Part shown: positions 9,920 to 53,892 of the stretch, one piece after another
Layout of the letters: every line of letters begins with the position of its first letter
Numbering within the stretch: the first letter of the stretch is position 1
Assembly: GCF_000225825.1 (NCBI RefSeq)
Contig: NZ_AGBX01000001.1
Coordinates: 992,001-1,056,000, forward strand
Direction of reading: 5' to 3'
Length of the DNA: 64,000 nucleotides
From: Brachybacterium squillarum M-6-3
Lineage (GTDB): Bacteria > Actinomycetota > Actinomycetes > Actinomycetales > Dermabacteraceae
Translations under genes and position numbers: made by a program
The notes under the pieces: generated by a model
The model's input: the letters and a program-made list of their open reading frames with translations, nothing else
What the model was told of the DNA's origin: nothing
Database searches by the model: none

Positions 9920-10576
9920 GTGACCATCGAAGACTTCCTGCGGATGCTGCTGCGCAACGCGCTGCTGCTCATCGCCGTCACCGTGCTCGGCGCCGCCGCC
10001 GGATACGGCTACTCGTACACCCAGCCCTCCCTGTACTCCGCCTCCGCGCCGGGGTACGTGGCCAACGGCAACGTGATCCCGACCGAGAAGACGGGCTCCG
10101 AGGAGGGGCACGCCATCGCCAACGACGCGGTGGAGGCCGTGGCCATCGAGACCGGCGGCGACGAGGGAGTGACCGCTGGCTACTCCCTGGTCACCTATCA
10201 GACGGCCCTGCTGCCCACCGCGCCGGTCTCCCCGGACCGGCAGCGCTTCGCGATGCTCGGCGCCGCGGCCGGTTTGCTGCTGGCACTGGCCCTGGTCTTC
10301 CTGTGCGACCGCAACGACACCCGCGTCCGCACCGCCGGGGACCTCCCCGACGGCCTCGAGCTGCCGGTGCTCGGCACCCCGCCCGAGGACAAGGAGCTGG
10401 CCCGCGTCGGCCAGCCGACGCTGCTGATCGACGCGGACCTGCGCCGCCCCGTGGTCGCCTCCGAGTTCGGGGTGTACGGCGAGGTGGGCCTGTCCCAGCT
10501 GCTGGCCGGCACCGCGGACCCCGAGGAGGACGGCGGGCGCCGGCGCCGCGCCGCCGATCCGCAGGAGCCCCGATGA
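9920..10576 (+). CDS. Shortened Wzz/BY-kinase-like protein without a P-loop
   Basis: The 218-residue frame starts with a Wzz-type N-terminus (TIEDFLRMLLRN, first membrane helix, YTQPSLYSASA) and a second helix after APVSPDRQRFAMLG, then RNDTRVRTAGDL and ends in LLIDADLRRPVVASEFG, the Walker-B-type motif of bacterial tyrosine kinases. In relatives, long extracytoplasmic and kinase segments lie between these pieces, including the GxxGxGKS P-loop and a Tyr-rich tail; all are absent here. I infer several internal in-frame deletions and a product unable to bind ATP normally. A TACGAT -10-like box is at 9879-9884. The next gene overlaps it as ATGA. Confidence 0.6.
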   Translation: MTIEDFLRMLLRNALLLIAVTVLGAAAGYGYSYTQPSLYSASAPGYVANGNVIPTEKTGSEEGHAIANDAVEAVAIETGGDEGVTAGYSLVTYQTALLPTAPVSPDRQRFAMLGAAAGLLLALALVFLCDRNDTRVRTAGDLPDGLELPVLGTPPEDKELARVGQPTLLIDADLRRPVVASEFGVYGEVGLSQLLAGTADPEEDGGRRRRAADPQEPR

Positions 10577-11517
10577 GCACCGGGCGGTGCGGAGTGGTGG
10601 TCCCGGTGCACGGGCCGATCGCCCCGGTGCTGCCCCTGCTGGAGGACCTGCTGGGCGAGCCCGCCCGTGAGCGCCCCGCCCGGCTGCTGCTGGTGGACGA
10701 CGCCTCGACCCCGCCCGTGGAGTTCGCCGACCTGCCCGCGGGCGTCGAGCTGCTGCGGCGGGAGCGCAACGGCGGCTTCGCGGCCGCGGTGAACACGGGC
10801 CTGGAGGCCCTGGCCGCGGGGGAGGAGCCGATCACCCAGGCCCTGGTGCTGAACTCGGACCTGCGTCTGCCGCCGGGCTTCCTCGGCGACCTGCTCGCCC
10901 ACGCCGCCGCGTTCCAGCCCGCCGTGGTGGGCTGCCGGAGCGTCGACGCCAGGGGCCGTTCCGGGTACGCGGCCCGGCGCTTCCCGACGATCGCCCAGCA
11001 GACCGTCGAGTGGCTGGTGCCGCTGGACTCCCAGCGCCACCGCGACCTGCTGCACCGCGCCGTCGGCCACGACCTGGCGGCCGAGCGCGGCCACGGCCTG
11101 GTGCCGGTGGACTGGGTCTCCGGCGCGGTGCTGCTGCTGCCCCTCTCCGCGGTCCGCGCCCTCGGGGGTCTCGACGCGGGGTACTTCATGTACGTCGAGG
11201 AGGTGGATCTGCAGCTCCGTCTGCGCGAGCGCAGCATCCCCTCCCTGCTGGACGCCGACCTCGAGGTGGTCCATCTCGGCGGCGGCTCCGCCGGCAGCGA
11301 GGCGCGACGCCGCCGCTGGCTGGTGGGCGCCCGGATGCGCTTCGCCCGCCGCCATGGCCACGTGCACGCCCTGCGCGCCGCCCTCACCCTCGCCACCGCC
11401 GTGAACCTGATGTGGAATGCTGGACGCCGGGCCGCCGGACGCGAGGTGCGGCCCCTGAAGGTCGCGCGCGAGGAGCTGGGTCTCATCCACCGGGCGGGGA
11501 GGGAACTGGCACCATGA
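10573..11517 (+). CDS. GT2 family glycosyltransferase
   Basis: A 314-residue GT-A enzyme resembling rhamnosyltransferases: VVVPVHGPIAP start, LLVDDAS nucleotide-binding segment, ERNGGFAAAVNTG, LNSDLRLPPG in place of the DXD region, a DWVSGAVLLLPLSAVRALGG loop, and YVEEVDLQLRLRE as the catalytic-base motif. It appears complete. The ATG overlaps the previous stop (ATGA) behind an AGGAG site 7 bp away, and the gene ends in another ATGA overlap, so it sits within a translationally coupled operon of surface-glycan genes. Confidence 0.85.
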   Translation: MSTGRCGVVVPVHGPIAPVLPLLEDLLGEPARERPARLLLVDDASTPPVEFADLPAGVELLRRERNGGFAAAVNTGLEALAAGEEPITQALVLNSDLRLPPGFLGDLLAHAAAFQPAVVGCRSVDARGRSGYAARRFPTIAQQTVEWLVPLDSQRHRDLLHRAVGHDLAAERGHGLVPVDWVSGAVLLLPLSAVRALGGLDAGYFMYVEEVDLQLRLRERSIPSLLDADLEVVHLGGGSAGSEARRRRWLVGARMRFARRHGHVHALRAALTLATAVNLMWNAGRRAAGREVRPLKVAREELGLIHRAGRELAP

Positions 11518-12269
11518 GCACCGACGTCCCCCGCCTGCTGCTGGTCACCCCCGGCTTCCACGGCTACGGCCGCAGCATCGCCGAGGCCTTCGCCCGCCGC
11601 GCCGCCGAGTGCAGCCGCCTCACCGACCGTGCGCTCGCCGCCGTCCGGGAGCTGCGCTCCGAGCGCCTCGTCGTCATCAAGGGCGACGCCCTGGACGATC
11701 GCTTCTGGGAGGAGACCGCCCGCATCCCGCGGATCCTCTGGCTCTACGACGACCTGCACCGCCAGGACTACACCACCGCGTTCCTGCGGGAGGTCGGCCC
11801 GGTGGTGGACTTCGCCGAGTCCGAGACGGCCGCCCTGCGCGCGGCCGGTGTCGACGCCCTCTGCGTGCCCGACGCCTTCGACCCCCACCGCGCCCGCACC
11901 TTCTCCTGGCGCCGCCCCTCCTTCCGGACCTCCCGGGAGGTGCCGCTCGAGCGCGCCTACCAGCTCCACGCCGACGGCGCCGCCGGCATCGCCATCCACG
12001 GCCTGCAGAACGGCCACGCGATGCGCACCTTCGAGATCCCCGGCACGGGCGGCGTGCAGCTCGTGGACCGCGAGGACGTCACCCGCTACTACGACATCGG
12101 CACCGAGGTCGCGCTGTGGCGCGACCTCGACGAGCTCGCCGAGCTCGGCCGCCTAGCCCTCACGGACCGCGCCCGGGGCGAGAGCCTCCGCGCCGCGGGC
12201 CGTGCCCGCACCCTGGCGAAGCACACCTTCGACCATCGCATCCAGGAGGTCGACTCCCCGTGGCCCTGA
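11514..12269 (+). CDS. Shortened CgeB-type glycosyltransferase
   Basis: The 251-residue product has the landmarks of CgeB/DUF3880-type GT-B proteins: LLLVTPGFHGYGRSIAEA at the start, RLVVIKGDALDDRFWEE, ILWLYDDL, ALCVPDAFDPH, and the C-terminal MRTFEIPGTGGVQLVDR..YYDIGTEVALW block. Family members are about 320-380 residues. Two stretches present in relatives are missing: after residue 28 (between the first Rossmann strand and the KGD segment) and after DAFDPHRA (the VFVGARYP linker). Both gaps preserve the frame. It overlaps its neighbours by 4 and 10 bp. Activity is doubtful. Confidence 0.6.
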   Translation: MSTDVPRLLLVTPGFHGYGRSIAEAFARRAAECSRLTDRALAAVRELRSERLVVIKGDALDDRFWEETARIPRILWLYDDLHRQDYTTAFLREVGPVVDFAESETAALRAAGVDALCVPDAFDPHRARTFSWRRPSFRTSREVPLERAYQLHADGAAGIAIHGLQNGHAMRTFEIPGTGGVQLVDREDVTRYYDIGTEVALWRDLDELAELGRLALTDRARGESLRAAGRARTLAKHTFDHRIQEVDSPWP

Positions 12270-13333
12270 TCCATCCCCGCAGCCTGGACCGCTGGCAGGA
12301 GTGGCAGCACAGCCGCCACCGCCTGCGGCACGCCAAGCACGCCCTCACCGGCACCCTCGGCTCCCTCCGCGGGTCCCCCGCCGCCGAGGAGCCCGCCCCG
12401 ACCCTGGTGCGCCATCGCCGCGAGGGCGAGGACCCCGCCGCTCCGCGGGTGCTCATCGGGGTGGACTCCGCGACCCCCTCCTCCCGCGCCAGCCTGCTCA
12501 CGGCCCTGCCCTACCTCACCGTCGGGGTGGACGTGCTCGCCCCCGCCGGGGTGGAGCTGCCCGAGCTGGGCGGGCCGGAGTGGAGCGCCGAGTCCCTGAC
12601 CGACGCGCGTCGCGCCCTGGACGAGGAGCCGCCTGCCGCGCTGCTCACCCTCGGCCACCACCTCGGCGTCGGCCGGGTGCTGCACGACTGGGCGTTGGAG
12701 ACGGGGGTGCGCACCGCCGTCGTCCAGCACGGTGCGCTGACCCCCTTCGCCCCACCGCTGCCCGCCGATACCACGCTGCTGGCCTGGAGCGACGCCGACG
12801 CGGCCTTCCACCGCTCGGGCCGCGAGGACGTCGCCACCCGCACCGTCGGCTCGCAGCTGCTGTGGCAGGCCGCCCACGAGTCCGAGTCCGCACCGTCCCC
12901 CGCTGGGGGGCAGATCGTGTTCCTCGGCCAGATGCACGGCGCCGAGCTGCCGCGTCGGCTCAGCGCCGGGATCCCCTACGAGTTCTGCCGCCGCGAGGGC
13001 GCCGTCTACCGGCCCCACCCCGCCGAGACCGACCGCGTCTCCCGCGCCGCGCACGCCCTCATGCGCCGTCGCGGCATCGAGGTCGTCGAGCCCACCACCC
13101 CGCTGCCCGAGCTCGACGGGCCCGTGGTCGGCATCTTCTCCACCGGCATCCTGGAGGCCGCCGTCCGCGGTCGACCCGCCTGGGTGACCGGCCGCTCGAT
13201 GCCCGACTGGGTGCGGGAGTTCTGGGAGCGCTACGGCATGCGCCGCTGGGGCGGCCCGCCCACCCCGGCCCCCGCCGTCGGCGCCGACGAGCCCGCCCGG
13301 CTGATCGCCCAGTTCCTCGAGGACGGGACGTGA
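12260..13333 (+). CDS. Putative capsule/polysialic-type glycosyltransferase
   Basis: A 357-residue protein beginning at a GTG preceded by AGGAGG 9 bp upstream, overlapping the preceding gene by 10 bp and neuA by 4 bp (GTGA). It has no signal peptide. The C-terminal half shows VFLGQMHGAELPRR, YRPHPAETDR and GIFSTGILEAAVRGRP, a pattern like that of GT-B polysaccharide transferases and polysialyltransferase-like proteins; TAVVQHGALTPF also fits. Immediate linkage to a CMP-sialate synthetase gene supports transfer of a sialic-acid-like nonulosonate, but that is an inference. The sequence looks intact. Confidence 0.55.
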   Translation: MALIHPRSLDRWQEWQHSRHRLRHAKHALTGTLGSLRGSPAAEEPAPTLVRHRREGEDPAAPRVLIGVDSATPSSRASLLTALPYLTVGVDVLAPAGVELPELGGPEWSAESLTDARRALDEEPPAALLTLGHHLGVGRVLHDWALETGVRTAVVQHGALTPFAPPLPADTTLLAWSDADAAFHRSGREDVATRTVGSQLLWQAAHESESAPSPAGGQIVFLGQMHGAELPRRLSAGIPYEFCRREGAVYRPHPAETDRVSRAAHALMRRRGIEVVEPTTPLPELDGPVVGIFSTGILEAAVRGRPAWVTGRSMPDWVREFWERYGMRRWGGPPTPAPAVGADEPARLIAQFLEDGT

Positions 13334-14040
13334 GCGCCCTCGCGGTGATCCCCGCCCGCGGCGGCTCCCAGGGCATCCCGCGCAAGAACCTGCTGGAGGT
13401 GGGCGGACGGCCTTTGATCGCCTGGACCATCGCGCAGGCCCTCGCCGCCCGGGAGCAGGACCCCGAGCTGAGCGTCGCCGTCTCCACCGAGGGCGCGGAG
13501 ATCGCGGGCGTCGCCCGCGAGCACGGCGCCACCGTGATCGACCGGCCCGCGGAGCTGGCCGGCCACACCGCCGCCAGCGAGCCCGCCGTGCTGCACGCGA
13601 TGGACGTCGTCGAATCGGGCGGCGCCACGCCGGACGCCGTGCTGCTGCTGCCGGCCACCTCCCCGGTGCGCCGCACCGACACCATCGCCCGCGCCCTGAC
13701 GCTGTTCCGTGGTTCCGAGGTCGACGCCCTGGTCGGCGTCGTCCCCGAGAGCCCCTTCTTCTGGCGACCCCCCGTCGAGGAGGGCGGCAGCGCCGTCCCC
13801 GCTTACGACGTGACCGCCCGGCCCCGCCGCCAGGAGCTGCGTCCCGAGTAGCTCCACTACTTCGGGAACGGCTGCCTCTACGTCACCGCGCCGCGCATCT
13901 ACCGGGAGCAGGGCAACCGCCTCGGCGGCCGCATCGGTCTGTTCGTGCTGGAGGAGGCCGAGGCCGTGGACATCGACACGGTGGCCGACGTCGCCGTCGC
14001 CGAGAGCATGCTGACTCACCTCGGATGGAGACCCTCGTGA
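13330..14040 (+). pseudogene. neuA: CMP-sialic acid synthetase, interrupted by a TAG codon
   Basis: The frame begins with the classic cytidylyltransferase signature ALAVIPARGGSQGIPRKN and continues through LLPATSPVRRTDTI and a RPRRQEL segment. At codon 174 (13849-13851) a TAG stops translation, but the same frame goes on for 62 more codons with family-typical sequence (HYFGNGCLYVTAPRIYREQ, GGRIGLFVLEEAEAVDID) to a TGA at 14040. A single C-to-T change (CAG to TAG) explains it. The truncated 173-residue product lacks the dimerisation and active-site parts. The full 236-residue length is normal for NeuA. The GTG start overlaps the preceding stop codon. Confidence 0.8.
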
Positions 14041-14869
14041 TCCTGGACCGCCGCACCGCCCCCTACGTGGTCGGCGCGCAGGCCGGCGTGCTCGAGGCGC
14101 TGCGCCGCATCGAGGCCAACCGCTCCCGCGTGGTGTTCCTGCTCGACGGCCACGGCACCCTGCGCGGCTCCCTCAGCGACCGGGACGTGCGCCGCCGGCT
14201 CGTCGGCCACACCGCCCCCGACCAGGGAACCATTGAGGTGCTCGTCGTCATCGACGGTGCGGTCGACGACTCCGAGGGCGTCGTTCGCGACGCCGCCGAT
14301 ACGGCCTCCGCCCACCTGGAGGTGCGCGCCGTGGTGCTGCCCCGGAACCGCGGCCGCGTCGGCGCACTCAACGTCGGACACGCGGCCGCCCGCGGGGACG
14401 TGCTGATCCGCTGTGACGACGACCTGCTGCCCGCCCCGGACTTCGTGGCCCGCCACGTGGCGGCCCACGCCGGCGGGGAGGACGTCGACTACGGCTCCCG
14501 GCTGCACGCCGCCGGCCTGGAGATCGCCCTGGAACCGGGCCTTGAGGCCGGGCACCGCGCCGCCGCCGTCACCACCGTGATCCGGGCGCGCCGCGCCCAC
14601 GACGCCGGCCGCGCCCGGCACCGCTTCGAGACCCTCCACCCCGCGGCCGGGCTCCCCGCCGCGATCCCGCCCCTGTCCGCCTGGAACCTCGCCGTCCGTG
14701 CCGTCTCCCGTCTCCCCGGTCTACCCCGGCGGGTGCAGGCCCGGTCGACGCGCTGCTGCCCCGACTGCCGCGTCCCCTGGGCCGGAAGCTCGTGGCGCTG
14801 TGGGTCGAGGGCGCCGGGGTGGTCGGATACCGTCGAGCCTGCGCACGAGAAGGAGCAACCCTGTCATGA
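14037..14869 (+). pseudogene. CBS-domain/GT2 chimera with a frameshift
   Basis: About 60 N-terminal residues (TAPYVVGAQAGVLEALRRIE, VVFLLDGHGTLRGSLSDRD) are the first CBS repeat of proteins usually fused to a sugar nucleotidyltransferase in sialate operons. They run without a break into a GT2 remnant (VLVVIDGAVDDS, LPRNRGRVGALNVGHA, CDDDLLPAPDF, AGHRAAAVTTVIRARR). Near 14737 the GT2 C-terminus (VDALLPRLPRPLGRKLVALW) moves to another frame, consistent with loss of one G in a G/C run. In that frame the gene ends at 14869, overlapping the next ATG as ATGA. So at least one fusion deletion and one indel have occurred. The start may be ATG 14025 or GTG 14037. Confidence 0.65.
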
Positions 14870-16035
14870 CCCCGTCCCCCTCTCCGGGACCCCGCGTGGC
14901 CATCGCCCACGATTACCTCACCCAGCGCGGCGGTGCCGAGCGGGTGGTGCTCTCCCTGTGCCGGGCCTTTCCCGAGGCCGAGATCCACACCCTGTTCCAC
15001 GAGCCCGAGCAGACCTACCCCGAGTTCGCCGAGCATCGCATCCGCACCAGCGGCCTGAACCGCATCGAGGCGCTGCGCACGGACCCCCGTCGCGCCCTGC
15101 CGCTGCTCTCGCACGCAGCGGACCGGATGCACATCGACGCGGACCTGGTGATCGCGAGCTCCTCCGGCTGGGCGCACGCCTTCCCCACCCAGGGCGCTCG
15201 CCTGGTCTACTGCCACTCCCCGGCGCGCTGGCTCTACCTGCCCGCCGACTACCTCGGCACGTCCGGTCCGATGGACCCCAAGCGCCTGGCCCTCACCGCG
15301 CTGACGCCCTCCCTGCGTCGCTGGGACCAGCGCGCCGCCCGCACCGCCGCCGCGAGCGGGGAGTACCTCGCGAACTCCACCATCGTCCGCGAGCGGATCC
15401 AGGAGGCCTACGGCATCCAGGCCAGCACCGTGTTCCCGCCCTTCCACCCCGCTGTCGCCGAGGGGGAGCAGCGGCCGATCCCCCAGCTGGCCGGCTGGGC
15501 CGGCGCCGACGGCACCGAGGGCGGACACCACCAGGTCGTCTCCCGCCTGCAGCCCTACAAGCACGTGCACCGCGTGATCCGCGCCGTCGGCGACACCGCC
15601 GGCGCCCGTCTGCTGGTGGTGGGCCGCGGCCCCGAGCGGGAGCGGCTGCGCGCCATGGCCCCGCCGAATGTCCGCCTGGTCGAGGGCCTGGACGACGCCC
15701 AGCTGCGCTGGGCCTACGCCCGCGCCCGCGGCCTGATCGCGATGAGCCACGAGGACTTCGGCCTCACCCCCCTCGAGGCCGGCGCCCACGGCATCCCCAC
15801 CCTCGCCCTGCGCGCGGGCGGCTACCTCGACACCATCGCCGAGGGCGTGAACGGGCACCTCATCGAGGGCACCTCCCCGGCCGAGATCCGCCGGGGCCTC
15901 GCCGAGATGGAGGAGATGAGCTGGGACGCGGCTCGCATCCGCGCCCACGCCGAGACCTTCTCCGAGCAGCGGTTCATCGAGGAGATCCGCGCCCGCGCGG
16001 AGGCGCTGGTGCTCGGCGCCAAGATCCCCCGCTGA
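14866..16035 (+). CDS. GT4 family glycosyltransferase (WbaZ-like)
   Basis: A 389-residue GT-B enzyme that appears complete. It has the WbaZ-type N-terminus VAIAHDYLTQRGGAERVVL, a YCHSPARWLY segment, ANSTIVRERI, the domain-2 start QVVSRLQPYKHVHRVIRA, and the C-terminal SHEDFGLTPLEAGAHGIPT motif with the EX7E-type glutamates. Relatives transfer mannose or similar sugars from nucleotide donors to lipid-linked glycans at the inner face of the membrane. An AGGAG site lies 11 bp before the ATG. It is the only undamaged gene between the neuA pseudogene and the next remnant. Confidence 0.86.
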   Translation: MTPSPSPGPRVAIAHDYLTQRGGAERVVLSLCRAFPEAEIHTLFHEPEQTYPEFAEHRIRTSGLNRIEALRTDPRRALPLLSHAADRMHIDADLVIASSSGWAHAFPTQGARLVYCHSPARWLYLPADYLGTSGPMDPKRLALTALTPSLRRWDQRAARTAAASGEYLANSTIVRERIQEAYGIQASTVFPPFHPAVAEGEQRPIPQLAGWAGADGTEGGHHQVVSRLQPYKHVHRVIRAVGDTAGARLLVVGRGPERERLRAMAPPNVRLVEGLDDAQLRWAYARARGLIAMSHEDFGLTPLEAGAHGIPTLALRAGGYLDTIAEGVNGHLIEGTSPAEIRRGLAEMEEMSWDAARIRAHAETFSEQRFIEEIRARAEALVLGAKIPR

Positions 16036-16649
16036 CCCTCCCGCGGATCAGCGTGGTGATCCCCGCCCGGGACGCCGCCCCCACGATCGCCGCCCAGCTC
16101 GACGCGCTCGCCGCGGTCGACGCCGCCTTCGCCGCCGGCCGCGGTCTCGGCCTGGCCAGCGGCGTCCCGACGGGGGAGGACCCGGCGACCTTCGCGCTGC
16201 CCGTCACCCAGGGGTACCTGCCCTACGGGATCTCCGCCTTCCTGGTGCTGCGCCGCGCGGTGCTCACGGACATCGGCGGCTTCGACGAGGACTTCGTGCG
16301 CGGCCACGACGGGGTGGACCTGTGCTGGCGCGCCCAGCAGGCCGGGCACCGCCTCGGCCTCGTCCGCGACGCCCACTTCACCGACGTGCCGCGGGGGCGG
16401 CTGCGCGACGCCTTCACCCAGTACCGCCGTTACGGCGCCACCTCGATCCTGCTCTTCGTCAAGCACATCGACCACGATCTGGACCGCGCCTCGTGGAGGA
16501 TCGAGCTGCGGCGTCTGCGTCGACTTCCCGGTGATCTGTGGCGATTGCTGTGCGGAGATGGTGACCGCCAGGAGCAGGCACAGGGGCGGGGATGGGTGAC
16601 CGGCCGCTGGCAGGGCCGGATCCGCCACCGCACATGGGGCCCGCGGTAA
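16032..16649 (+). pseudogene. GT2 glycosyltransferase with its core deleted
   Basis: The frame holds a GT2 N-terminus (RISVVIPARDAAPTIAAQLD, about 30 residues) joined to the C-terminal galactosyltransferase-type block (GYLPYGISAFLVLRRAVLTD, GFDEDFVRGHDGVDLCWRAQ). The central 130-150 residues that carry the DNGSxDG and DXD motifs are missing, so the product cannot bind a sugar nucleotide. The join keeps the frame. The only start overlapping the previous gene is CTG at 16032 (CTGA); GTG at 16053 is the next candidate and removes the first beta strand. This is probably non-functional. Confidence 0.65.
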
Positions 16650-16671
16650 ATCTGACCGGACAGGCCTCCCG

Positions 16672-17772
16672 TCAGGTGGCCGCCCCCGCTCCGGGCAGCG
16701 TCACCGCCGCGAGCTGCTGGGCCCACGCCTTCCAGCTCAGGCGCCGGGCCGCGTCCTCGGCGGCGCTCGCCGAGACCTGCGCGAGCCGCTGTGGGGACAG
16801 CCGCACCAGCCGCGCCAGCATCTGCCCCTCCACCTGGCCGGGGTCGACCAGCCAGCCGCCCACGCCGTGCCGCACCAGGGTGGAGACGCCGCCCGCGTCG
16901 ACCGCGAGCACCGGCAGGCCGTGGGTGAGGGCATCGGTGATCACCACCCCCGAGGCGTTGGCCCGGGAGGGCTCCAGCAGCAGGTCGGAGTGGGCGTACA
17001 GCCGGGAGAGCTGCGCCGCGTCGAGCGGGCCCACGGCGCGGGCGCCCGGGGGCAGCTCCGCCGGGGCGTCCCCGACGATGGTCAGCTCCACCGGTCGCAG
17101 GTGCCGCAGCAGCGACAGCACCCGCAGCGCCGCCGCGCCGTTCTTGCGCTCCCAGTCCCGTGCCACCAGCAGCAGCCGCAGCACGTCCCCGGGCGCGCGG
17201 GGCGGACGGGGACCCTTCGGGGTGATGGCCGGGCCGAAGGGGGCCACGGTCACCCGGAAGGGCGGCACCCCGATGTCGCCCACCAGCGAGTCGCGTGCCC
17301 AGACGCTCGCCACCAGGTAGTGGTGGGTGTGCAGGGCGGCGCGGCGCTCCACCCAACGGCCCTGCCGCCGCGAGGAGGCGCTGAGATCCGCGTACAGCGG
17401 GTACAGGGCGGAGACCGCGTCGAAGGTGGCGTCGGTGACCTGCACCGTCGGCCGGCCCGGGTCCAGCACCAGATCGGTCGAGGAGGCCAGGGAGACCAGG
17501 GCCCGGGTGGGGGAGGCGGCCAGCACCCGGCCGAGCGCCGCGGAGCGCCGCTGGGCGGTGGCCCGGGAGTGGGAGGGCAGCACCGTGCGGGGGGAGAGGC
17601 GGGCGCGGGCCCGGTCCACCAGGGCGTCCCCGACCGGCGGGACCTCCAGCAGCTCCGGTTCGCAGACGGACTCGATGGCCCGCACCATCGGCGCGATCAC
17701 CCCGGACCAGGCGGCCGGGTCGCGCAGCGGCCAGGCGCTGTGCACGCCGACGGGCGCATCGACCAGCTGCAT
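16672..17772 (-). CDS. GT4 family glycosyltransferase
   Basis: A 366-residue GT-B enzyme: linker VTVAPFGPAI, domain-2 strand LRLLLVARDWERKNGAAAL, then LLLEPSRANASGVVITDALT and GLPVLAVDAGGVSTLV, the region that carries the donor-binding EX7E glutamate. I prefer the ATG at 17772, which has AGGAGG 5-6 bp upstream, over the ATG at 17808: a TAGCAT -10-like box (17812-17807) overlaps the latter. It is transcribed opposite to its neighbours, divergently from the truncated ABC transporter. The N-terminal domain is a little compact but no obvious break is visible. Confidence 0.78.
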   Translation of the reverse strand: MQLVDAPVGVHSAWPLRDPAAWSGVIAPMVRAIESVCEPELLEVPPVGDALVDRARARLSPRTVLPSHSRATAQRRSAALGRVLAASPTRALVSLASSTDLVLDPGRPTVQVTDATFDAVSALYPLYADLSASSRRQGRWVERRAALHTHHYLVASVWARDSLVGDIGVPPFRVTVAPFGPAITPKGPRPPRAPGDVLRLLLVARDWERKNGAAALRVLSLLRHLRPVELTIVGDAPAELPPGARAVGPLDAAQLSRLYAHSDLLLEPSRANASGVVITDALTHGLPVLAVDAGGVSTLVRHGVGGWLVDPGQVEGQMLARLVRLSPQRLAQVSASAAEDAARRLSWKAWAQQLAAVTLPGAGAAT

Positions 17773-17876
17773 CGCCGCCTCCTGCGCATCGTCGTACGTA
17801 GGGGCCATGCTACGGACCGGCCCGGGCGGCCGTCATCGACACCATCGCCCGCGTCCGCCCGCCGAACGGAGCGGAC

Positions 17877-18383
17877 ATGCCTGACCGTCCGCCGCGCACC
17901 ACCGTGCGCCAGGACATCTCCCGCCTGCGCCGGAGCTTCGCCCTGGTGCCGTGGCGGATGCGGGGGCAGGTGCTCGGTCTGCTGGTCACGGCGTCGCTCT
18001 CCGCGGGCCTGGACATGCTGGCCGTGCTCTCGATGCTGCCGCTCACCCAGATGCTCACCTCCGAGGGGGAGCTGCCCGGCTCGGTCCGGCGATACCTGGT
18101 GCCGCTGCTGGGCACCGAGGACCGTCCCCGGGTGCTGCTGGCCCTCGCAGGCCTCGTCGCCGGGGTCTTCATCCTCAAGAACCCGGCCCTGATCGCGATC
18201 CGCTGGTGGAGCCTCGGGATCACCAGCCGCGCGGAGGCCGCCGCGCAGTCCGAACTCCTTCGACGCTATCTCGGCGCCCCCTACGCCGCGCACCGCCGCC
18301 GCCCGCGGGCCACCATCCTGCAGGTGCTCTCCGGTGCCGTGCCCACCGCCTTCTCCCGGATCATGCTCGGCTGGCACGCATAG
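17877..18383 (+). pseudogene. ABC exporter, N-terminal membrane domain only
   Basis: The 168-residue frame starts like a fused permease/ATPase: a charged N-terminus, then helices (LLVTASLSAGLDMLAVLSML; VLLALAGLVAGVFILKN) and the coupling-helix segment LLRRYLGAPYAAHRRR. Such proteins are 550-620 residues with a C-terminal ATPase domain, of which nothing remains. The similarity breaks at about 18370, where the sequence turns into the antisense of a glycosyltransferase, and a TAG follows at once. This is a physical junction, not a domain-sized protein. Confidence 0.65.
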
Positions 18384-19444
18384 GTGTCGAGGTCCTCATA
18401 GGGCTGCGCGGTGTCGTAGCCGCCCACCGCGCGCAGGGCCTCCATGCGCAGCAGAACGGTCGGCGCGGGGATCCAGTCGGCGTGCTCGAGCATCCGCAGC
18501 AGCGGATCGGGCGCGGCAATGCGCGCTGCCCACTGCGGATGCGTCCCGGAGAAGGTCCGGGACTCGAGGTGCCCGGCGCGGTCGGCCCGCAGGCAGTCCC
18601 CGTAGGCCAGCACCGCCCCGGTGTCCTCCAGGGCCGCCACCTGTTGGGGGAGGCGCCCCGGCAGCTGCCAGTCGTCCCCGGCCAGGGCCAGGATCACCCG
18701 CTCCCGGTCGGCGGGGGAGAGCTCCGAGGCCCATGCCCGGATCTCCTCCGCGGTGCCGTCGGGGGACGCGTTGTCGCACACCACCAGGCGGCAGTCCGGA
18801 TCGGCGAGGACGCTGTCCAGGCACTGCCGGATGACGGGACGGCGACGGTACGCCATCACCCCCGCGGTGACCGCTGGCCCGGTCCCGGCGTACCAGCGGA
18901 TCCGCAGGTCGACGAGGACCTGCTGAGGCCGGTGCCACCAGCGCTCCCCGCGACGGGAGTCCACCAGGCGCACGGTCGCGGCGCGCTCGGCGGCGAACAT
19001 CCGCTGGAAGTCCGGGGCGCGGGAGGTGGTGGACATGTCGGTGATGAAAGGGGTGCGGATGAGAGCCGCGGGCGGTCGAGGGGACATGGTCACCAGCCAG
19101 TCGTCCCCGCCCCAGGTCTTCAGCTCCGCCGGCACGGGGTGGTAGTCGCGCCGCCGCAGGCAGTGGAAGGTGCCGTCGTAGCGCGTGGTGGCGTCGGGGC
19201 GGGCGAGGCGGTGGCCGATGCGTCCCCCGGCGCCGAGGTCCCAGGCCGGGTTGACGAAGATGTTGCGCCCCCGCTCGAGCACCCGCAGCTTCGGGTGCTC
19301 CCGGTCGATCGGGGTCCCGGCGTTGTTGATGACGATCACCTCGAGCACGAGGCGGTGCTCCAGGCAGCGGTCCAGAACCTCCGCCAGCCGCGGCGACCGC
19401 TGCAGGGTCGGCACGATGACCGTGAAGGGGGGCTGGCCGCGCAT
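18281..19444 (-). pseudogene. Merged, 3'-truncated GT2 glycosyltransferases
   Basis: Reading from the ATG at 19444, the first part is one GT2 type (PPFTVIVPTLQRSPRLAEVL, PKLRVLERGRNIFVNPAW) with a gap, then LARPDATTRYDGTFHCLRRR and WGGDDWLVT. After about residue 205 a second GT2 begins (TAGVMAYRRRPVIRQCLDSV, VVCDNASPDGTAEEI) and continues to PYEDLDTYA. Past about 18375 the frame is only the antisense of the truncated ABC gene. So two glycosyltransferases appear merged by deletion and the 3' end is lost. The sequence shares its break with the ABC remnant, tail to tail. Confidence 0.6.
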
Positions 19445-19692
19445 GCGCCCAGGGTGGTGCCCCGTCCGAGGATCCCCCGCGCCCGTCCCTCGAACCACGG
19501 CGTGACCCTCGTGTGACGCATTCGAACAGCGAAGATGTACGGCTCGTGGTTACGGCGGATCCCGGGGCGCGGGTAAGGTTCACGAATCGGTCATACTCCG
19601 CAAAAGCTCGGGTAGTACGCCTCGCAGGCCACCCGGGTGCGGAGTTCCCGCCCCTTGTTTCACCTCTCCCACGACACCCTGGAGGGTCACCC
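19445..19692. other. 248-bp intergenic region before the priming transferase
   Basis: It separates the divergent GT2 remnant from the sugar transferase gene. Candidate -10 boxes on the plus strand are TAAGGT (19574-19579) and CATACT (about 19592). The region is less GC-rich than its neighbours. No RNA gene or repeat was seen. Confidence 0.4.
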
Positions 19693-21264
19693 GTGGCTCC
19701 CACGACTCAGCCTCTTCCGTCCCTCGACCACGACGGCCCGGCACCGCCCGCGAGCGTCGTCGAGGCGCCGGACCCCTCCCCCTCCGGTGGCCCGGCACCG
19801 CACCGCATCGCGCTGACCGCCCAGGCTCCCGCCCGGATCCGTCGACGGCGGGTCATGGCCACCACCTCCCTCGTGCTGGCCGACATCGTGGCCCTCACCC
19901 TGGCGTCCGTCGCCGCCTACTTCATCCGGCAGTCCTTCGTCTCCCTCGGCCGCGCGCCCGACCTGGGAGGCGCGATCTCCGACTCCGCCGTGGTGATCGC
20001 GGCCGGCTGGCTGCTGGCGATCATGGCCTCGGGGGGCTACAACCCGCGGCTGATCTCCGCCGGTCCCGAGCTGTACCGCTCGGTGATGCGCGCCAGCTTG
20101 ATCGCCGCGGGCCTGGTAGGAGCCGGTCTCTACCTCACCGGAGTGCCGCTGTCGCGGCCCTTCTTCGTGGCGCTGTTCCTGGTGGGTCCGCTGCTGCTGC
20201 TCCTGGTGCGACTGCTCGCCCGCCGCCTGCTGCAGCGGGCCCGCACCGCCGGGAAGTTCCGCTCGCGGGTGCTGGCCGTCGGCTCGCCCTCCGCGGTCCG
20301 CGGCATCTCCCGCACCCTGCGTCGGGAGGCGTGGCTGGGCTACGACGTCGCCGGGGCCGTGCTGCCCATCTCGGAGCACTACGACCGCGGGCCGCAGGAC
20401 ATCGACGGCATCCAGGTGATGGGCCGCGAGGACTCCCTGCGCTCCGTGGTGCGGCTGATGCGCCCGGACATCGTGCTGTTCACCGCCGGCTCCACCGCCA
20501 CCGCCGAGGAGTTCCGCCGCACCGCCTGGGACCTCGAGGACCTCAACGTCGACGTCATCGTGGTGCCCGGCCTCAGCGAGATCGCCGGGGACCGGGTGCG
20601 GATGCGCCCCGTCGCCGGTCTCCCGCTGGTGCACCTGGACCTGCCGCGATCCCGCAAGGCCCTCACCTGGACCAAGCGGGCCTTCGACATCGCCGCCAGC
20701 TCCCTCGCCCTCCTGCTGCTGTCCCCGGTGCTGCTGGGGATCATGATCGCGATCAAGCGTGACGACGGCGGCACCCCGATCTTCCGCCAGCAGCGCGTCG
20801 GCCGCGGCGGCCGCCCCTTCACCTTCCTGAAGTTCCGCTCGATGGTGACCGACGCCGAGTCGCGCCGTGACGAGCTGGAGACCCTGGCACGCGACCGCGG
20901 CAACGCGGTGATGTTCAAGATGGCCGACGACCCCCGGGTGACGAAGGTCGGCAAGGTCCTGCGCCGCTACTCCCTGGACGAGCTGCCGCAGCTGATCAAC
21001 GTGCTGCGCGGTGACATGTCCCTGGTCGGACCGCGCCCCGCGCTGCCCCAGGAGGTCAGCGACTACGACATCGACGCCAAGCGCCGTCTCGCGGTGAGCC
21101 CCGGCATCACGGGGCTGTGGCAGGTCTCCGGACGCAGCAACCTCTCCTGGGACGACACGGTGCGGCTGGACCTGTACTACGTGGACAACTGGTCCTTCAC
21201 CCGCGACCTGCTGATCCTGGCCCGCACCGTGCGGGCGGTGCTGGCCTCGCGCGGGGCGTACTGA
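19693..21264 (+). CDS. Priming polyprenyl glycosylphosphotransferase
   Basis: A 523-residue WbaP/CpsE-type enzyme that transfers a sugar phosphate to undecaprenyl phosphate and so starts repeat-unit synthesis. Four or five N-terminal helices (about residues 55-180) are followed by a CoA_binding_3-like domain and a C-terminal bacterial sugar transferase domain with its re-entrant helix (TWTKRAFDIAASSLALLLLS), FLKFRSMVTDA, DELPQLINVLRGDMSLVGPR and GITGLWQVSGRS. I chose the GTG at 19693 for its GGAGGG site; the frame is open upstream to 19513 without better support. It is intact and would serve the Wzx/Wzy genes further east. Confidence 0.88.
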   Translation: MAPTTQPLPSLDHDGPAPPASVVEAPDPSPSGGPAPHRIALTAQAPARIRRRRVMATTSLVLADIVALTLASVAAYFIRQSFVSLGRAPDLGGAISDSAVVIAAGWLLAIMASGGYNPRLISAGPELYRSVMRASLIAAGLVGAGLYLTGVPLSRPFFVALFLVGPLLLLLVRLLARRLLQRARTAGKFRSRVLAVGSPSAVRGISRTLRREAWLGYDVAGAVLPISEHYDRGPQDIDGIQVMGREDSLRSVVRLMRPDIVLFTAGSTATAEEFRRTAWDLEDLNVDVIVVPGLSEIAGDRVRMRPVAGLPLVHLDLPRSRKALTWTKRAFDIAASSLALLLLSPVLLGIMIAIKRDDGGTPIFRQQRVGRGGRPFTFLKFRSMVTDAESRRDELETLARDRGNAVMFKMADDPRVTKVGKVLRRYSLDELPQLINVLRGDMSLVGPRPALPQEVSDYDIDAKRRLAVSPGITGLWQVSGRSNLSWDDTVRLDLYYVDNWSFTRDLLILARTVRAVLASRGAY

Positions 21265-21281
21265 GTCCGGGAGGCGTCCCC

Positions 21282-21730
21282 GTGCCGCACCGGCCCGCCG
21301 ACCCGGGACCCGTCCGCCGGGGACGGACCCTGCGATGGACGGCCTGTGCGGTGCTGCTGCTGTACCCGCTGGGTGCCGGCGTGCTGCTGCTGACGGCCGA
21401 CGGCTGGGGGGCCGTGAACCACGCGAACCTGCGTGCCTGGGAGCTGACGATGGGGCCGCTGGGCCTGCAGTCGGTGATCTCCCCGGAGGTGTTCTTCGAC
21501 CTGGCGAACGTGCTGCTGTTCGTGCCCGTCTTCGCCGCACTCGCGGTGCTGAGCCCGCGCTGGTGGTGGGTGTTGCTCGGGGCCGGGATCTCCGTGGCGG
21601 TCGAGACCTATCAGCTCACCCTGCCCGGTCGCGACGCCACCGTGGTGGACGTCGCCACCAACACGATCGGGGCCGTGCTGGGCGTGGCCCTCGGCATCGC
21701 CCTGGCCCGCCTCGTGCTCGAGGACGCTGC
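21282..21730 (+). pseudogene. VanZ-like membrane protein without a stop codon
   Basis: From a GTG with a GGAGG site, about 147 codons encode a VanZ-family protein: a first helix, the FFDLANVLLFVPVFAALAV segment, VAVETYQLTLPGRDAT and NTIGAVLGVALGIAL. Just after LARLVLED the sequence turns into the antisense of a nucleotidyltransferase fragment, and the frame has no stop until well inside manA (22868). The end coordinate is the approximate similarity break. VanZ proteins are membrane proteins of poorly known function (one gives teicoplanin resistance). It follows the priming transferase by 17 bp, probably in the same transcript. Confidence 0.6.
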
Positions 21731-21878
21731 CCGCGGCGAAACTCGTCACCGGCTCCCAGCCGGCCGCCTCCAGGGCCCGGTCGAGGCGGTCGACGGCGTC
21801 GGGGTCCACCAGCAGATCGCAGTCCGTGGAGCGGCCGCGCCCGGCGGCCAGCTCGGGCACCCGAACGCTCTCGGTCAT
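21726..21878 (-). pseudogene. Nucleotidyltransferase (PF14907-like) fragment
   Basis: From the ATG at 21878 the 50 visible residues (RSTDCDLLVDPDAVDRLDRA, then LEAAGWEPVTSFA) match the active-site strand and following helix of NTP_transf_5-type nucleotidyltransferases, where the DxDxLV pair binds metal. The LKG-type segment normally preceding it is missing, and the C-terminal two thirds are cut where VanZ begins on the other strand. Relatives of this family are found beside PqqD and HPr-kinase-like genes, as here. Confidence 0.5.
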
Positions 21879-21934
21879 GGCCCGCAGTCCAAGGAGCCCG
21901 CCTGCTCCTGGACGCATCGTGGAGGTCGGTCTCC

Positions 21935-21940
21935 TAGGGT
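21935..21940 (+). promoter_or_regulatory. -10 box TAGGGT upstream of manA
   Basis: TAGGGT fits the TANNNT pattern and would give a leader of about 60 nt to manA, which has a GGAAGGA-type ribosome-binding site just before its ATG. Confidence 0.4.
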
Positions 21941-22008
21941 TGAGAACGGACGGGCGGGCACGAGGTCCCCGCCGAGCACCATCGCCGACCTCGCCCGGGG
22001 GAAGGATC

Positions 22009-23217
22009 ATGCCCATGTGGGAGCTCGAGGGCCGCGTGCAGCGGTACCCGTGGGGGTCCCGCACGGCGCTGCCCGCCTTCCTGGGCGCCGAGGCCGACGG
22101 GGAGCCCTGGGCGGAGATCTGGTTCGGCGCGCACCCGCTGGCCCCCGCCGGGCTGCCCGGTGCCCGCTCCCTGGACGCGGTGATCGCCGCGGACCCGGAG
22201 CGGCTGCTTGGGGAGGACGTGTGCCGCGCCTTCGCGGGCCGCCTGCCCTATCTGCTCAAGCTCATCGCCCCCGAACGTCCCCTGTCGCTGCAGGTCCACC
22301 CCACCCGGGAGCACGCCGCCGAGTCCTTCGCCGCCGAGAACGCGGCGGGCCTGGCCCTGGACGCCCCGGGCCGCAACTACCGCGACGACAACCACAAGCC
22401 GGAGATGGTGGTGGCGCTGACCCGCTTCACCGCCATCTGCGGCTTCCGCACCCCGCGCCGCGCCGCCGCGCTGCTGGCCGGGCTCGGCACCGACCTCACC
22501 GACCGCCTGCACGGCCTGCTCACCGAGCACCCCACCGCCCACGGCATGCGCGCGGCCTTCCGCACCCTGGTGGCCGCCTCGATGCGCCCGGGCGAGGCGG
22601 AGGTGCGGGCGGTCGTCGACGCCTGCGCTGCCCGCCTGGTGGCGGGGGACTCCCCCTCCCCACGCATCGACCGCACGGTCGGCCTGCTGGCCGCCCACCA
22701 CCCCGGCGACCCCGGCGTGGTCGCCGCCCTGCTGCTGAACCCCGTCACCCTGCAGCCCGGGGAGGCGATGTTCGTGCCCCCGGGTGCCCTGCACGCCTAC
22801 CTCGAGGGCATCGCCGTGGAGGTGATGGCCGCCAGCGACAACGTGCTGCGCGCCGGCCTGACCGGTAAGCGGGTGGACGCCGAGGAGATGCTGCAGTGCG
22901 TGAGCGTCAGCGCCGCACCGCCGCTGCGGGTCGCTCCCGAGCGGCAGAACGCCACCTCGATCGCCTACTACGCCCCCGTGGACGACTTCGAGCTGTCCCT
23001 GACCACCCTCGAGGACCCGCCCGGGGTGTTCCGCCCCCGCCATCCCGTGCCCGGCTCCGGACCCCGCACCCTGCTGGGCCTGGAGGGGGAGGTGCTGGTG
23101 GAGACCGCGGCCGGGCGGCACGTGCTGCCCCGCGGCCGCGCCCTGTTCGTCCCCGCCTCCGCCGGGGCCCTGTGGGCCGGCGGTGCCGGCCGGTTCGTGC
23201 AGGCGAGCGTGCCGTGA
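22009..23217 (+). CDS. manA: Mannose-6-phosphate isomerase, type I
   Basis: A 402-residue zinc enzyme interconverting mannose-6-phosphate and fructose-6-phosphate, feeding GDP-mannose for glycan synthesis. Visible hallmarks are the RYPWGSRTALP start, WFGAHP, KLIAPERPLSLQVHP (Gln and His zinc ligands), NHKPEM (Glu ligand), FVPPGALHAYLEG (His ligand) and SDNVLRAGLTGKRVD. The ATG at 22009 and an ATG two codons later are both possible. It ends in a GTGA overlap with the PqqD-like gene. No damage is seen, unlike its neighbours. Confidence 0.93.
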   Translation: MPMWELEGRVQRYPWGSRTALPAFLGAEADGEPWAEIWFGAHPLAPAGLPGARSLDAVIAADPERLLGEDVCRAFAGRLPYLLKLIAPERPLSLQVHPTREHAAESFAAENAAGLALDAPGRNYRDDNHKPEMVVALTRFTAICGFRTPRRAAALLAGLGTDLTDRLHGLLTEHPTAHGMRAAFRTLVAASMRPGEAEVRAVVDACAARLVAGDSPSPRIDRTVGLLAAHHPGDPGVVAALLLNPVTLQPGEAMFVPPGALHAYLEGIAVEVMAASDNVLRAGLTGKRVDAEEMLQCVSVSAAPPLRVAPERQNATSIAYYAPVDDFELSLTTLEDPPGVFRPRHPVPGSGPRTLLGLEGEVLVETAAGRHVLPRGRALFVPASAGALWAGGAGRFVQASVP

Positions 23218-23538
23218 GCGACGGCGACGTCCGCGCCTACCGGCTGCGCACCCTCGTGCTCGACGTCGGGGTGGAGGGCACCCGGGTGGGGGGCGCTGCC
23301 CTCCGGCGCGGTGCTGCAGCTGCACGGTGCGGGGGAGTGGATCCTCGACGCCCTCGGGGCCGTTGACGACCCCGAGCCGCTCTGGCGCACTCCCGCCGCG
23401 ATCTCCGCCGAGCTCCGTGCCGAGCTGGAGGACGCCCCCGCCGACCTGGACGACGTGGTCGCGGAGTTCCTCGCCTCCCTCGCCGCCCAGGGCCTGCTCC
23501 TCTCGCGCCCCGCCGACGCCGCCGGGGAGCCGGCATGA
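23214..23538 (+). pseudogene. PqqD-like protein, frameshifted in a G run
   Basis: The GTG overlaps the manA stop. The first 25 codons (DVRAYRLRTLVLDVGVEG) and the rest (AVLQLHGAGEWILDALGAVD, FLASLAAQGLLLSR) lie in different frames. A single extra G in the G-run near 23288 explains the shift; without it the product would be about 107 residues. The pattern, a short beta sheet then helices with a QGLLLSR end, fits the PqqD family, the peptide-recognition fold of ribosomal-peptide pathways and HPr-rel-A systems. The family call is tentative because the sequence is short. Confidence 0.5.
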
Positions 23539-24040
23539 GCGCGCCCCGTCCCGGCGCGGGCCCGAGCCCGGGACCTGCGCCTCGCCGGGCACCCCGTGCG
23601 GATCGCGCTGGGTCCCGGCCACGAGGCGCTCGCCGCCGAGCTCGCCCGCCTCTGGGCGCACCTCGCGGACCCCCGCCCCGAGGGGGAGGCGTCGCCGTCG
23701 GCGACCGGGTCGGAGGAGGAGCGCACCGCCCCGATCGTGCTGGCCTACTCCCCCCCGCCCCGTCGGGGGAGGAGCCCCCGGAGGGCGACCGCGCCGGGGG
23801 TCCCCGCCCGCTGTCCCCGGGGCCGACCGCCGCCTACACCCTCTCGGGCGACCTCACCCGAGCCATCATCGAGCGGCGCATCGGGCGCGAGCTGCTGCTG
23901 CACGCCGGGGTGCTGGACCATCCCCGGCTCGGCGTGGTGGTGCTGCTGGACGGGGTGACCGCGGTGGTCTGGGACGCGCTCGCCGCCCGCGGGGCCCTCG
24001 ACCCCACCGCGCGTCGAGCGCGGGCGCGGCCGCTCGGCGG
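23535..24040 (+). pseudogene. HPr-kinase-like protein remnant
   Basis: Coding sense switches frame twice: the ATG frame gives way near 23550-23580 to one with RLAGHPVRIALGPGHEALAA, then returns in the C7 run at 23750-23756 to a frame with TLSGDLTRAIIERRIGRELL and LHAGVLDHPRLGVVVL. The last block is what precedes the P-loop in HprK-related serine kinases, but the P-loop itself (GxxGxGKS) is absent; the text passes straight into LLDGVTAVVWDALAARG, more like a PqqD end. I infer two indels plus a deletion. It overlaps the PqqD-like gene by 4 bp and converges on the MauE-thioredoxin gene. Confidence 0.5.
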
Positions 24041-24044
24041 TCGC

Positions 24045-25133
24045 TCAGTGCGCGGCGGGCTCCGCCGCGGGGAGAGCGCCCTCCGCGCGGGCCTCGCGGA
24101 TCTGCTCCGCGATCTCCGCGGCGAAGCCGATCACCTCGTCGCCGCCGACCACCGGCCCCCCGGCCAGCATCCCGTCGGCCCCCAGCAGCACCGCGCTCGG
24201 CGCTCCCCGGCCGCCCAGGGCCTCGCGCGCGCTGAAACGGGGGTCGTGCAGCGCACGCCCGGCGACCCGGGCGGTGGTGCGCTCCCGCAGCCCTGCCGCC
24301 GGGGTGCGGAGCACGGCGAGCACCTGCACGGTGGGCTCCAGCTCGGCGGCCCAGCCGCCCACCTGGTCCAGCACCCGCTCGCAGGGGCCGCAGCCCTCGG
24401 TGACGAACAGCAGCAGGGCCGCCCGGGCCTCCGTCAGCTCCCGCAGGGTGACCAGGGTGCCGTCCTCGCGCTGCAGCACGGCGGCGGGGATGGCGCTGCG
24501 CTCGTAGTCCAGCTCCTCCGCCTCCTCCGCGCCCCGGTCGAGCTCGGAGCCCCCAGCATCCCCGGCGTGCTCGTCGCCGTGCGGGACCGCGGGCGCGGCG
24601 GCGGACGGTACGTCCGGGGCGGTCAGCCCCCCGAGCGCCGCCGTGGTCAGCACCGTCGTCGCCACCAGGGCGAGGGCCCAGCCGAGCAGGGACCCGGGGG
24701 TGTGCACCACGGCGTCAGCGACCTCCCCGGTCGCGGCCAGCACGACGGTGAGCAGGGCGGCGAGGGTCAGCAGCGCGTTGCGCAGCAGGGTGGCGCGGGA
24801 GACGGTGGGGGAGGCGAGGGTACCGAAGCAGGCGCACTCCACCGCCTCCTCGAACCGCAGCGCGCGGGCGATGATCACCAGATAGGCCACCATGAGGGCG
24901 GCGACCAGCACCGCGATCACCGTCTGCAGGACGGGCACGGGCGCCCACAGCAGCAGCGCCAGGGCCACCTCCGCCCCGGGCAGGACCGTCGCCACCAGCC
25001 GATGGAGCCCGCGGGCAGGCAGGCGCAGCGAGGTCATCGCGTCGACCGTCGCGCGCCGGCTGCCGAGCTTCGCCAGGCCCGAGACCAGCAGCGTCATCGT
25101 GATCAGGATCGGGGCGGCCAGGGCCGGACTCAT
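24045..25133 (-). CDS. MauE/DoxX-thioredoxin fusion, redox membrane protein
   Basis: A 362-residue protein. The N-terminal part (about residues 1-170) is a MauE/DoxX-like domain of five or six helices (ILITMTLLVSGLAKLGSRRA start, VECACFGTLA loop with two cysteines). A charged linker with many Glu and Asp follows, then a TlpA-like thioredoxin domain with a CGPC active site near residue 245 (FVTEGCGPCERVLDQ). MauE and related proteins move electrons for disulphide formation outside the membrane. The ATG at 25133 overlaps the upstream phosphatase stop; a GTG one codon earlier is an alternative. No break is visible. Confidence 0.8.
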   Translation of the reverse strand: MSPALAAPILITMTLLVSGLAKLGSRRATVDAMTSLRLPARGLHRLVATVLPGAEVALALLLWAPVPVLQTVIAVLVAALMVAYLVIIARALRFEEAVECACFGTLASPTVSRATLLRNALLTLAALLTVVLAATGEVADAVVHTPGSLLGWALALVATTVLTTAALGGLTAPDVPSAAAPAVPHGDEHAGDAGGSELDRGAEEAEELDYERSAIPAAVLQREDGTLVTLRELTEARAALLLFVTEGCGPCERVLDQVGGWAAELEPTVQVLAVLRTPAAGLRERTTARVAGRALHDPRFSAREALGGRGAPSAVLLGADGMLAGGPVVGGDEVIGFAAEIAEQIREARAEGALPAAEPAAH

Positions 25134-25360
25134 CACGCGTCCCCGTCCCCGCGCAGGCGGGCGTCGAGCTGCTCGCAGGTGTCCCAGATCCGGGAGGCGG
25201 CCGCGGCGGCCGCCTCCTCGCCGCGCCGGTAGGGGTCGGCGATCTCGGCGCCGGGGCCGGGGGCGCTGCGGGCCCAGCGGGAGACGGCGGCGAAGGGGGA
25301 CCGGCAGATGTTCCCGGTGCAGACCACGAGCACGGGGCCGGGGAAGGGCGAGGCACTCAT
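25133..25360 (-). CDS. Low-molecular-weight phosphatase-like protein, shortened
   Basis: The 75-residue frame has the complete LMW-PTP P-loop (CTGNICRSP, Cys14 to Arg20) and the general-acid Asp loop (ADPYRR, Asp42) but only about 20 residues lie between them, where LMW phosphatases have about 100. The deletion is in frame. In intact enzymes both motifs line one active site; this protein is too short to form that fold. In polysaccharide loci such phosphatases reverse BY-kinase phosphorylation, and here the BY-kinase-like gene at 9920 has lost its P-loop too. It is the first gene of a two-gene operon with MauE-thioredoxin. Confidence 0.65.
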   Translation of the reverse strand: MSASPFPGPVLVVCTGNICRSPFAAVSRWARSAPGPGAEIADPYRRGEEAAAAAASRIWDTCEQLDARLRGDGDA

Positions 25361-29822: not shown

Positions 29823-32065
<2,243 letters not shown>

Positions 32066-45323: not shown

Positions 45324-45351
45324 AAGAACCTCCTGGGGTGGGGCGGCAGCG

Positions 45352-52520: not shown

Positions 52521-52573
52521 GGCGGGACCTCCGGGTCGGCCAGGGATGCAGGGGGGTGTCCCTATGTTCTGAG

Positions 52574-53798: not shown

Positions 53799-53892
53799 GA
53801 TGCTGTCCTTCCCTGGAGCATCATTGCTGGTCGCAGTCTTGACACCCGGTGCCGGCACCCACGTTACGAAGAGACCTCAGCAATGCTGGGCC
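53799..53892 (-). ncRNA. Candidate bridge-RNA region of the IS110 element
   Basis: This non-coding left end precedes the transposase. It holds an 8-bp stem (53797-53804 with 53817-53824) whose loop carries the transposase ribosome-binding site, a GGTGCCGGCACC palindrome (about 53849-53860) and a small CAGC/GCTG stem (about 53878-53888). IS110-group elements transcribe a structured bridge RNA from this position. The location and structure are suggestive only; neither loop was matched to target or donor sequence. Confidence 0.35.

Follow-up and report, generated by a model that had tools for sequence, protein, structure and literature searches.

The genome of Brachybacterium squillarum M-6-3 (3.19 Mb, a draft assembly of 8 contigs) carries a set of damaged capsule genes, which are best explained as a nonulosonic-acid (sialic-acid-like) capsule locus that would have lost its use and is probably being removed piecemeal. 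The stretch analysed, called the window below, measures 64,000 nucleotides (nt) and spans positions 992001–1056000 of NZ_AGBX01000001.1 (contig C8 of genome G000 in our genus sample); the locus occupies its positions 9.9–25.4 kb. We set the probability of the decay reading, which rests on sequence comparison, at about 0.85. Three independent lines lead to it: loss of the pathway, raised change at invariant residues, and confinement to the capsule genes. A preliminary description of this DNA had listed many genes with missing internal blocks, and had left three explanations side by side, a decaying island, selection for mini-proteins, and an assembly that dropped segments. The first is supported by the lack of a NeuB match, by a stop in NeuA, by changes at invariant residues in capsule genes that are not deleted, and by the constraint kept by the shared genes lying between them.

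The genus sample includes 38 genomes, the one under study and 37 others, denoted by G numbers. Syntenic stretches of the relatives were compared with the window, genes being called by a codon-usage script. The locus has a GC content of about 75%, which rises above 90% at the third codon positions of most coding stretches.

Probable loss of the nonulosonic-acid pathway

NeuB, whose presence was scored in each genome by matches to PF03102, has zero matches in the whole genome of B. squillarum M-6-3. Fifteen of the 37 other genomes are positive, including all 14 which carry CgeB, and because of this difference the locus is, by its predicted gene content, a former and not a working nonulosonic-acid biosynthesis locus. 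NeuA is homologous over its full length to a CTP_transf_3 protein of G009. The gene is interrupted by an in-frame TAG at 13849–13851, is otherwise full length, and features changes at 16 columns that are invariant in six relatives; with this stop it does not classify as a NeuA-type cytidylyltransferase. This locus is predicted to yield no nonulosonic-acid capsule in the strain.

The gene order in the relatives, with some variation, is poxB, Wzz/BY-kinase, GT2, CgeB-like, a gene without Pfam family (the 12260 gene, from its start in the window), NeuA, CBS-NeuB-SAF-TIM barrel, further glycosyltransferases, GT4, priming transferase, nucleotidyltransferase, manA, PqqD-like, HPr-kinase-like (HPrK-like), MauE, low-molecular-weight (LMW) phosphatase, and the aldehyde dehydrogenase ALDH. 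Full-length loci of the genus are those of G018, G020, G009, G014, G007, G011, G012, G040, G046, G039 and G008, and the best covered among them share the order of the window. The window differs from these loci in that they contain NeuB, and Wzz/BY-kinase, CgeB and NeuA genes which are longer or uninterrupted; some gene calls in the relatives are themselves short or broken (e.g. Wzz in G020 and G008). G018 is collinear with the window from Wzz to the priming transferase, and there the genes are full-length and the interval measures 24.9 kb, against 11.3 kb in the window. Between poxB and manA lie 12.3 kb in the window and 20.5–33.4 kb in five relatives. The 12260 gene is found between poxB and manA also in G013 and G002, both without CgeB and NeuB.

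Genes and remnants of the locus are listed in Table 1. Some names are assumptions of ours: we take the gene at 21324 to be VanZ-like and the one at 23229 to be PqqD-like, and manA is presumably correctly named in the preliminary description, from which the name was taken over.

Table 1. Genes and gene remnants of the capsule locus, in window coordinates.
Feature	Position	Strand	State
Wzz/BY-kinase remnant	9920..10576	+	Wzz start, transmembrane parts and Walker A' kept; Walker A block and most of C-terminus gone
GT2 glycosyltransferase	10573..11517	+	full length, relaxed
CgeB-like glycosyltransferase remnant	11514..12269	+	38 and 49 amino acids gone, both in frame
12260 gene, shared, without Pfam family	12260..13333	+	full length, constrained
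NeuA (CMP-nonulosonate synthetase) pseudogene	13330..14040	+	full length, in-frame TAG
CBS domain, predicted leftover of CBS-NeuB-SAF-TIM-barrel gene	14025..14222	+	
GT2 remnant, fused in frame to CBS domain	14223..14857	+	70–76 amino acids gone at 14474; frame shift 14711–14729
GT4 glycosyltransferase	14890..16035	+	full length, relaxed
GT2 remnant	16041..16649	+	76–77 amino acids including DxD block gone, in frame
GT4-like gene	16672..17808	-	without large loss relative to G018; too few orthologs for constraint score
ABC transporter start	17877..18383	+	first 166 amino acids (614 in G018)
Two GT2 remnants, single open frame	18281..19444	-	first without 48 amino acids including NDD block
Priming glycosyltransferase	19855..21264	+	intact, constrained
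Small membrane gene	21324..21752	+	matches 170-amino-acid protein of G012
NTP_transf_5 nucleotidyltransferase remnant	21708..21857	-	
manA	22009..23217	+	intact, constrained
Small PqqD-like remnant	23229..23538	+	matched part 34–41% identical; frame uncertain
HPr-kinase-like remnant	23545..24005	+	frame shift 23667–23784; P-loop block lost at 23945
MauE-domain gene	24045..25133	-	intact, constrained
LMW phosphatase remnant	25133..25360	-	CxxxxxR loop joined to DPYRR, 102–105 amino acids gone in frame

Blocks lost from single genes

All eight genes singled out by the preliminary description (Wzz/BY-kinase, CgeB, CBS-GT2, GT2, merged GT2, nucleotidyltransferase, HPr-kinase-like, phosphatase) were found to be shorter than their counterparts in relatives. 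The Wzz/BY-kinase measures 218 amino acids (aa), against 512–596 aa in five relatives and 453–543 aa in further ones. It has lost about 70 aa after the first transmembrane part, a gap which probably corresponds to more than one loss, then 5 aa, a Walker A block that measures exactly 61 aa in all six alignments, and the greater part of the C-terminus. Of the BY-kinase motifs Walker A, A' and B, the remnant retains Walker A'; it lacks the Walker A block and the C-terminal part with LLIDAPP, and does not classify as a BY-kinase.

The CgeB-like protein measures 251 aa instead of 332–342, and both missing blocks are present in 6/6 relatives aligned. CgeB was found in 14 of the 37 other genomes, and in 14/14 two conserved blocks lie 146–162 nt further apart than in the window. 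Short genes shared with relatives had been named earlier as a check on recent decay; the short CgeB occurs in none of these 14 genomes, and among the 37 others this form is private to the genome under study.

The open frame starting at 14025 encodes the first 66 aa of a protein of about 754 aa with CBS, NeuB, SAF and TIM-barrel parts, followed in the same frame by what remains of a different gene, a GT2. The LMW phosphatase has lost its middle part, measured against proteins of 172–187 aa. The CxxxxxR loop and the DP acid motif are kept, and presumably had their usual roles in such phosphatases; with 102–105 aa gone between them, from a fold of about 150 residues, the remnant does not classify as an LMW protein tyrosine phosphatase. 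About 50 aa of the nucleotidyltransferase are recognisable out of 241–285, and the HPr-kinase-like gene survives as pieces of a protein of 368–465 aa, devoid of the P-loop. Small gains were also observed, 15 nt in the GT2 gene labelled GT2a in 4/4 alignments and extra bases in the HPr-kinase-like gene.

Three genes had been described as intact. This holds for the priming transferase and manA, which are intact and constrained; the GT4 at 14890 is full-length and nonetheless relaxed. To the damaged set can be added the GT2 at 10573, which has its full length and is relaxed, NeuA with its stop, and the truncated ABC-transporter gene at 17877.

Constraint at conserved residues

Constraint was scored as the rate of change of the window's gene at columns invariant in the other relatives, divided by the relatives' own rate. 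Capsule genes score 2.67 (Wzz), 3.40 (GT2), 6.07 (CgeB), 4.27 (NeuA) and 4.69 (GT4). Shared genes score 0.85 (poxB), 0.89 (12260 gene), 0.95 (priming transferase), 0.95 (manA), 0.48 (MauE) and 0.96 (ALDH). Three of the five scored capsule genes carry no deletion, and four of the six shared genes are interleaved with capsule genes. An earlier run with fewer relatives gave 1.7–3.0 for capsule and 0.3–1.2 for shared genes.

Reading frame of the joins

Most joins had been reported to keep the frame, with the caution that joins of this sort are easier to recognise. Proteins of the relatives were therefore aligned to the window DNA in a frame-blind manner, a frame change at a loss being almost cost-free; at low gap cost a first run split weak stretches into many spurious shifts, and was repeated at higher cost. 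Joins were considered well supported when flanked by a clear block on both sides and seen with at least two relatives; the CBS-GT2 fusion, judged from the frames of both blocks, was added. Eleven of 13 such joins are in frame, as are 14–15 of 20 when seven weak ones are included. The caution was fair, and the in-frame excess persists under frame-blind alignment. If one third of losses fell in frame by chance, the probability would be P=0.0002 for 11/13 and P=0.0009 for 14/20. The locus contains one stop, in NeuA, and two well-supported shifts (at least two joins shift the frame, in the GT2 remnant fused to the CBS domain and in the HPr-kinase-like gene; Table 1), fewer than such a blind model expects.

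Seven joins were left out of the 13 on account of their weak flanks. In frame are a 9-aa loss in the nucleotidyltransferase, the fusion of two GT2s and, at 28% identity, the second GT2 at 18.7 kb. Shifted are the Wzz C-terminus (5/6 alignments), the PqqD-like gene (2/3) and the VanZ-like gene (seen with one relative). The C-terminus of the nucleotidyltransferase keeps the frame in 3 alignments and loses it in 2.

Dead upstream cistrons might be kept open by selection for the translation of genes downstream, as of the 12260 gene by CgeB and of the MauE gene by the LMW phosphatase. The CgeB frame runs into that of the 12260 gene, and the phosphatase frame touches that of MauE. Each of the six joins which precede a constrained gene that overlaps or adjoins is in frame (three in Wzz, two in CgeB, one in the phosphatase), and the stop and both shifts lie elsewhere. 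We nevertheless regard this as an improbable main cause. The difference between 6/6 and 5/7 is not significant (P=0.46), the background of repeat phase described below predicts by itself the observed in-frame share, and in G013 and G002 the 12260 gene directly follows poxB, with no phosphatase call upstream of MauE. Such selection could still contribute to the in-frame effect.

Codon phase of short repeats

Pairs of identical 6- to 10-mers lying 12–800 nt apart were collected, and the fraction sharing codon phase was determined. In 31 genes of the window outside the locus, 73, 79, 83, 87 and 90% of the 6-, 7-, 8-, 9- and 10-mers, respectively, are in phase; in 21 locus genes of the relatives the figures are 65, 71, 76, 79 and 80%. 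Shuffling the codons of the window genes keeps the effect (70–87%), shuffling the bases removes it (32–33%), and it can be concluded that the phase bias comes from codon usage. It was found elsewhere too: 55–69% in E. coli for 6- to 9-mers (10-mers reach 91%, of only 47 pairs), 61–83% in T4, and 60–73% in Cutibacterium avidum. What sets this GC-rich DNA apart is the density of the repeats, not the phase effect: 8-mer pairs number 92 per kb in window genes, against 16 in the E. coli sample and 27 in T4.

Since direct repeats of 6–10 bases within genes mostly share codon phase, a deletion between two of them would be in frame by default. With a background of 65–80% in phase, 11 in-frame joins out of 13 are unremarkable (P=0.11–0.50). 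In-frame loss thus needs no special mechanism, and codon-phased repeats are a candidate answer. Deletions may have arisen by slippage or by short-homology recombination between short direct repeats; most would fall in frame without selection on the product, and the remnants would stay open and pass for mini-genes. The priming transferase, manA, the MauE gene and the 12260 gene would survive by being needed for other functions. We would extend this tentatively, and with somewhat less than even confidence, to strongly codon-biased genomes at large, in which deletions between short direct repeats in genes may be in frame by default, chance repeats being locked to the codon phase. If this is true, dying genes in such genomes would persist for long as open mini-genes with few stops, which annotation takes for real ones, and the undercount of pseudogenes would be greatest in GC-rich genomes, which also have the densest repeats of this kind. 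An in-frame join is no evidence of selection here, and the expectation of one third misleads if such repeats drive deletion. In the portions of the open-licence literature that were accessible, no description of the repeat-phase effect or of a link to in-frame deletion was found.

Weighing of the decay reading

Several observations weigh against decay, or against repeats as its vehicle. With fewer relatives, the excess of the GT2 at 10573 was just 1.7 and one relative scored higher; in the fuller run there is still one relative whose Wzz scores higher than that of the window. Terminal branch lengths overlap (1.60–2.60 for capsule, 0.93–1.68 for shared genes), pointing in the same direction with poor separation. 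The GC content at third codon positions is high through most remnants, so that the decay would have to be young, or mutation GC-biased. Part of the size gap to G018 may reflect gene gain in G018. A low gap cost splits several joins into compensating shifts. When the ends of the lost blocks in relatives were compared with random in-phase places, the mean longest match was 3.5 nt versus 2.7 nt expected, and in 31 join-relative pairs no join had a median P below 0.16; acting repeats would be eroded, because the relatives, at 50–78% protein identity, are too distant. Among 4-mers 54% are in phase, fewer than among repeats of 6 nt or more, and very short homology would therefore explain the in-frame excess less well.

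The possibility that the assembly dropped segments, and that the true genes are longer, draws on a draft made of 8 contigs, a very GC-rich genome and many losses packed together. As a control, missing blocks were counted outside the locus, in the remainder of the window and in 160 kb of flanking DNA; with the whole window this makes 224 kb out of 3.19 Mb. The automatic count requires >45% identity, one simple ortholog and a block of at least 10 aa. Among 50 genes outside the locus with such an ortholog, two lack a block, each judged against one relative, and the 13 genes judged against at least two relatives include none. In the locus the same count flags only 2/10 genes, one of which is a wrong-strand gene call; given this undercount, which stems from the identity and single-ortholog thresholds, losses in the locus were listed gene by gene.

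The almost loss-free flanks argue against dropped segments, as do the zero ambiguous bases in the window and the absence of NeuB matches from the whole genome. The GC-richest blocks would be expected to go, and missing blocks are GC-richer than kept ones in just 7/19 comparisons. Residue changes in undeleted capsule genes, and the untouched state of the shared genes lying in between (12260 gene, priming transferase, manA, MauE), are beyond the reach of an assembler, and make this explanation very unlikely.

Selection for functional miniature enzymes is the least plausible explanation: most remnants are open and in frame and the short phosphatase retains the CxxxxxR loop as well as DPYRR, but Walker A, the NeuB domain, the DxD and NDD blocks of two GT2s and the P-loop of the HPr-kinase-like gene are gone, change at invariant residues is raised in undeleted capsule genes as well, and the short CgeB is absent from the 14 other genomes with this gene. 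For users of the annotation, the open frames at 9.9–25.4 kb are mostly remnants under the decay reading, not short enzymes.

Two features outside the locus deserve mention. One is a gene at 64632–65663, just past the window (C8:1056632–1057663); it lacks 44 aa that are present in the only relative comparable with it, and no larger block is missing outside the locus. The other, a stretch at 29931–30293, has 73% identity to part of a G014 protein of 284 aa, whose first 138 aa it lacks, and is a possible remnant.

Comparison with known systems

In pseudogenised capsule or O-antigen loci of bacteria a whole surface-polysaccharide locus loses function at once, while shared genes at the edges survive. 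The locus described here is similar in its whole-locus loss of function and in the survival of shared genes. It differs in that the damage consists mainly of many in-frame internal losses, stops and clear shifts numbering only one and two, and in its very high GC content. Repeat-mediated deletion, by slipped replication or short-homology recombination, would likewise yield internal losses of 5–200 codons; in contrast to the textbook case, no significant repeats were found at the joins here. The open-licence literature searched yielded nothing on Brachybacterium with nonulosonic acid, and the parts seen of texts on Brachybacterium capsular polysaccharide and actinobacterial nonulosonic acid do not describe this locus.

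Priming transferase and second polysaccharide region

The best named matches of the priming transferase are from Brachybacterium, and are at most 63% identical. It is the only full-length match in the genome; two weaker pieces share an open frame of 417 aa at C8:1110 kb. A second polysaccharide region, at 34667–63998, includes GT4s, GT2s, a polysaccharide pyruvyl transferase, two flippases, a short Wzz (219 aa) and a CDP-alcohol phosphotransferase. The priming transferase perhaps serves this cluster, at about 34–64 kb, and our guess is that one coat was replaced by another, the priming enzyme being common to both.

Two adjoining large genes of 1204 and 790 aa are located on the minus strand at 41709–47724. 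Both feature LamG (concanavalin A-like) domains, the larger one also PKD, and they likely encode surface proteins beside the second region. An IS110-family transposase and a GT2 share one open frame at 51513–53858, also on the minus strand (Pfam matches at aa 9–356 and 438–657 of 761 aa). The transposase end looks frame-shifted, and the frame is probably a damaged IS110 copy read through into the neighbouring GT2 gene.

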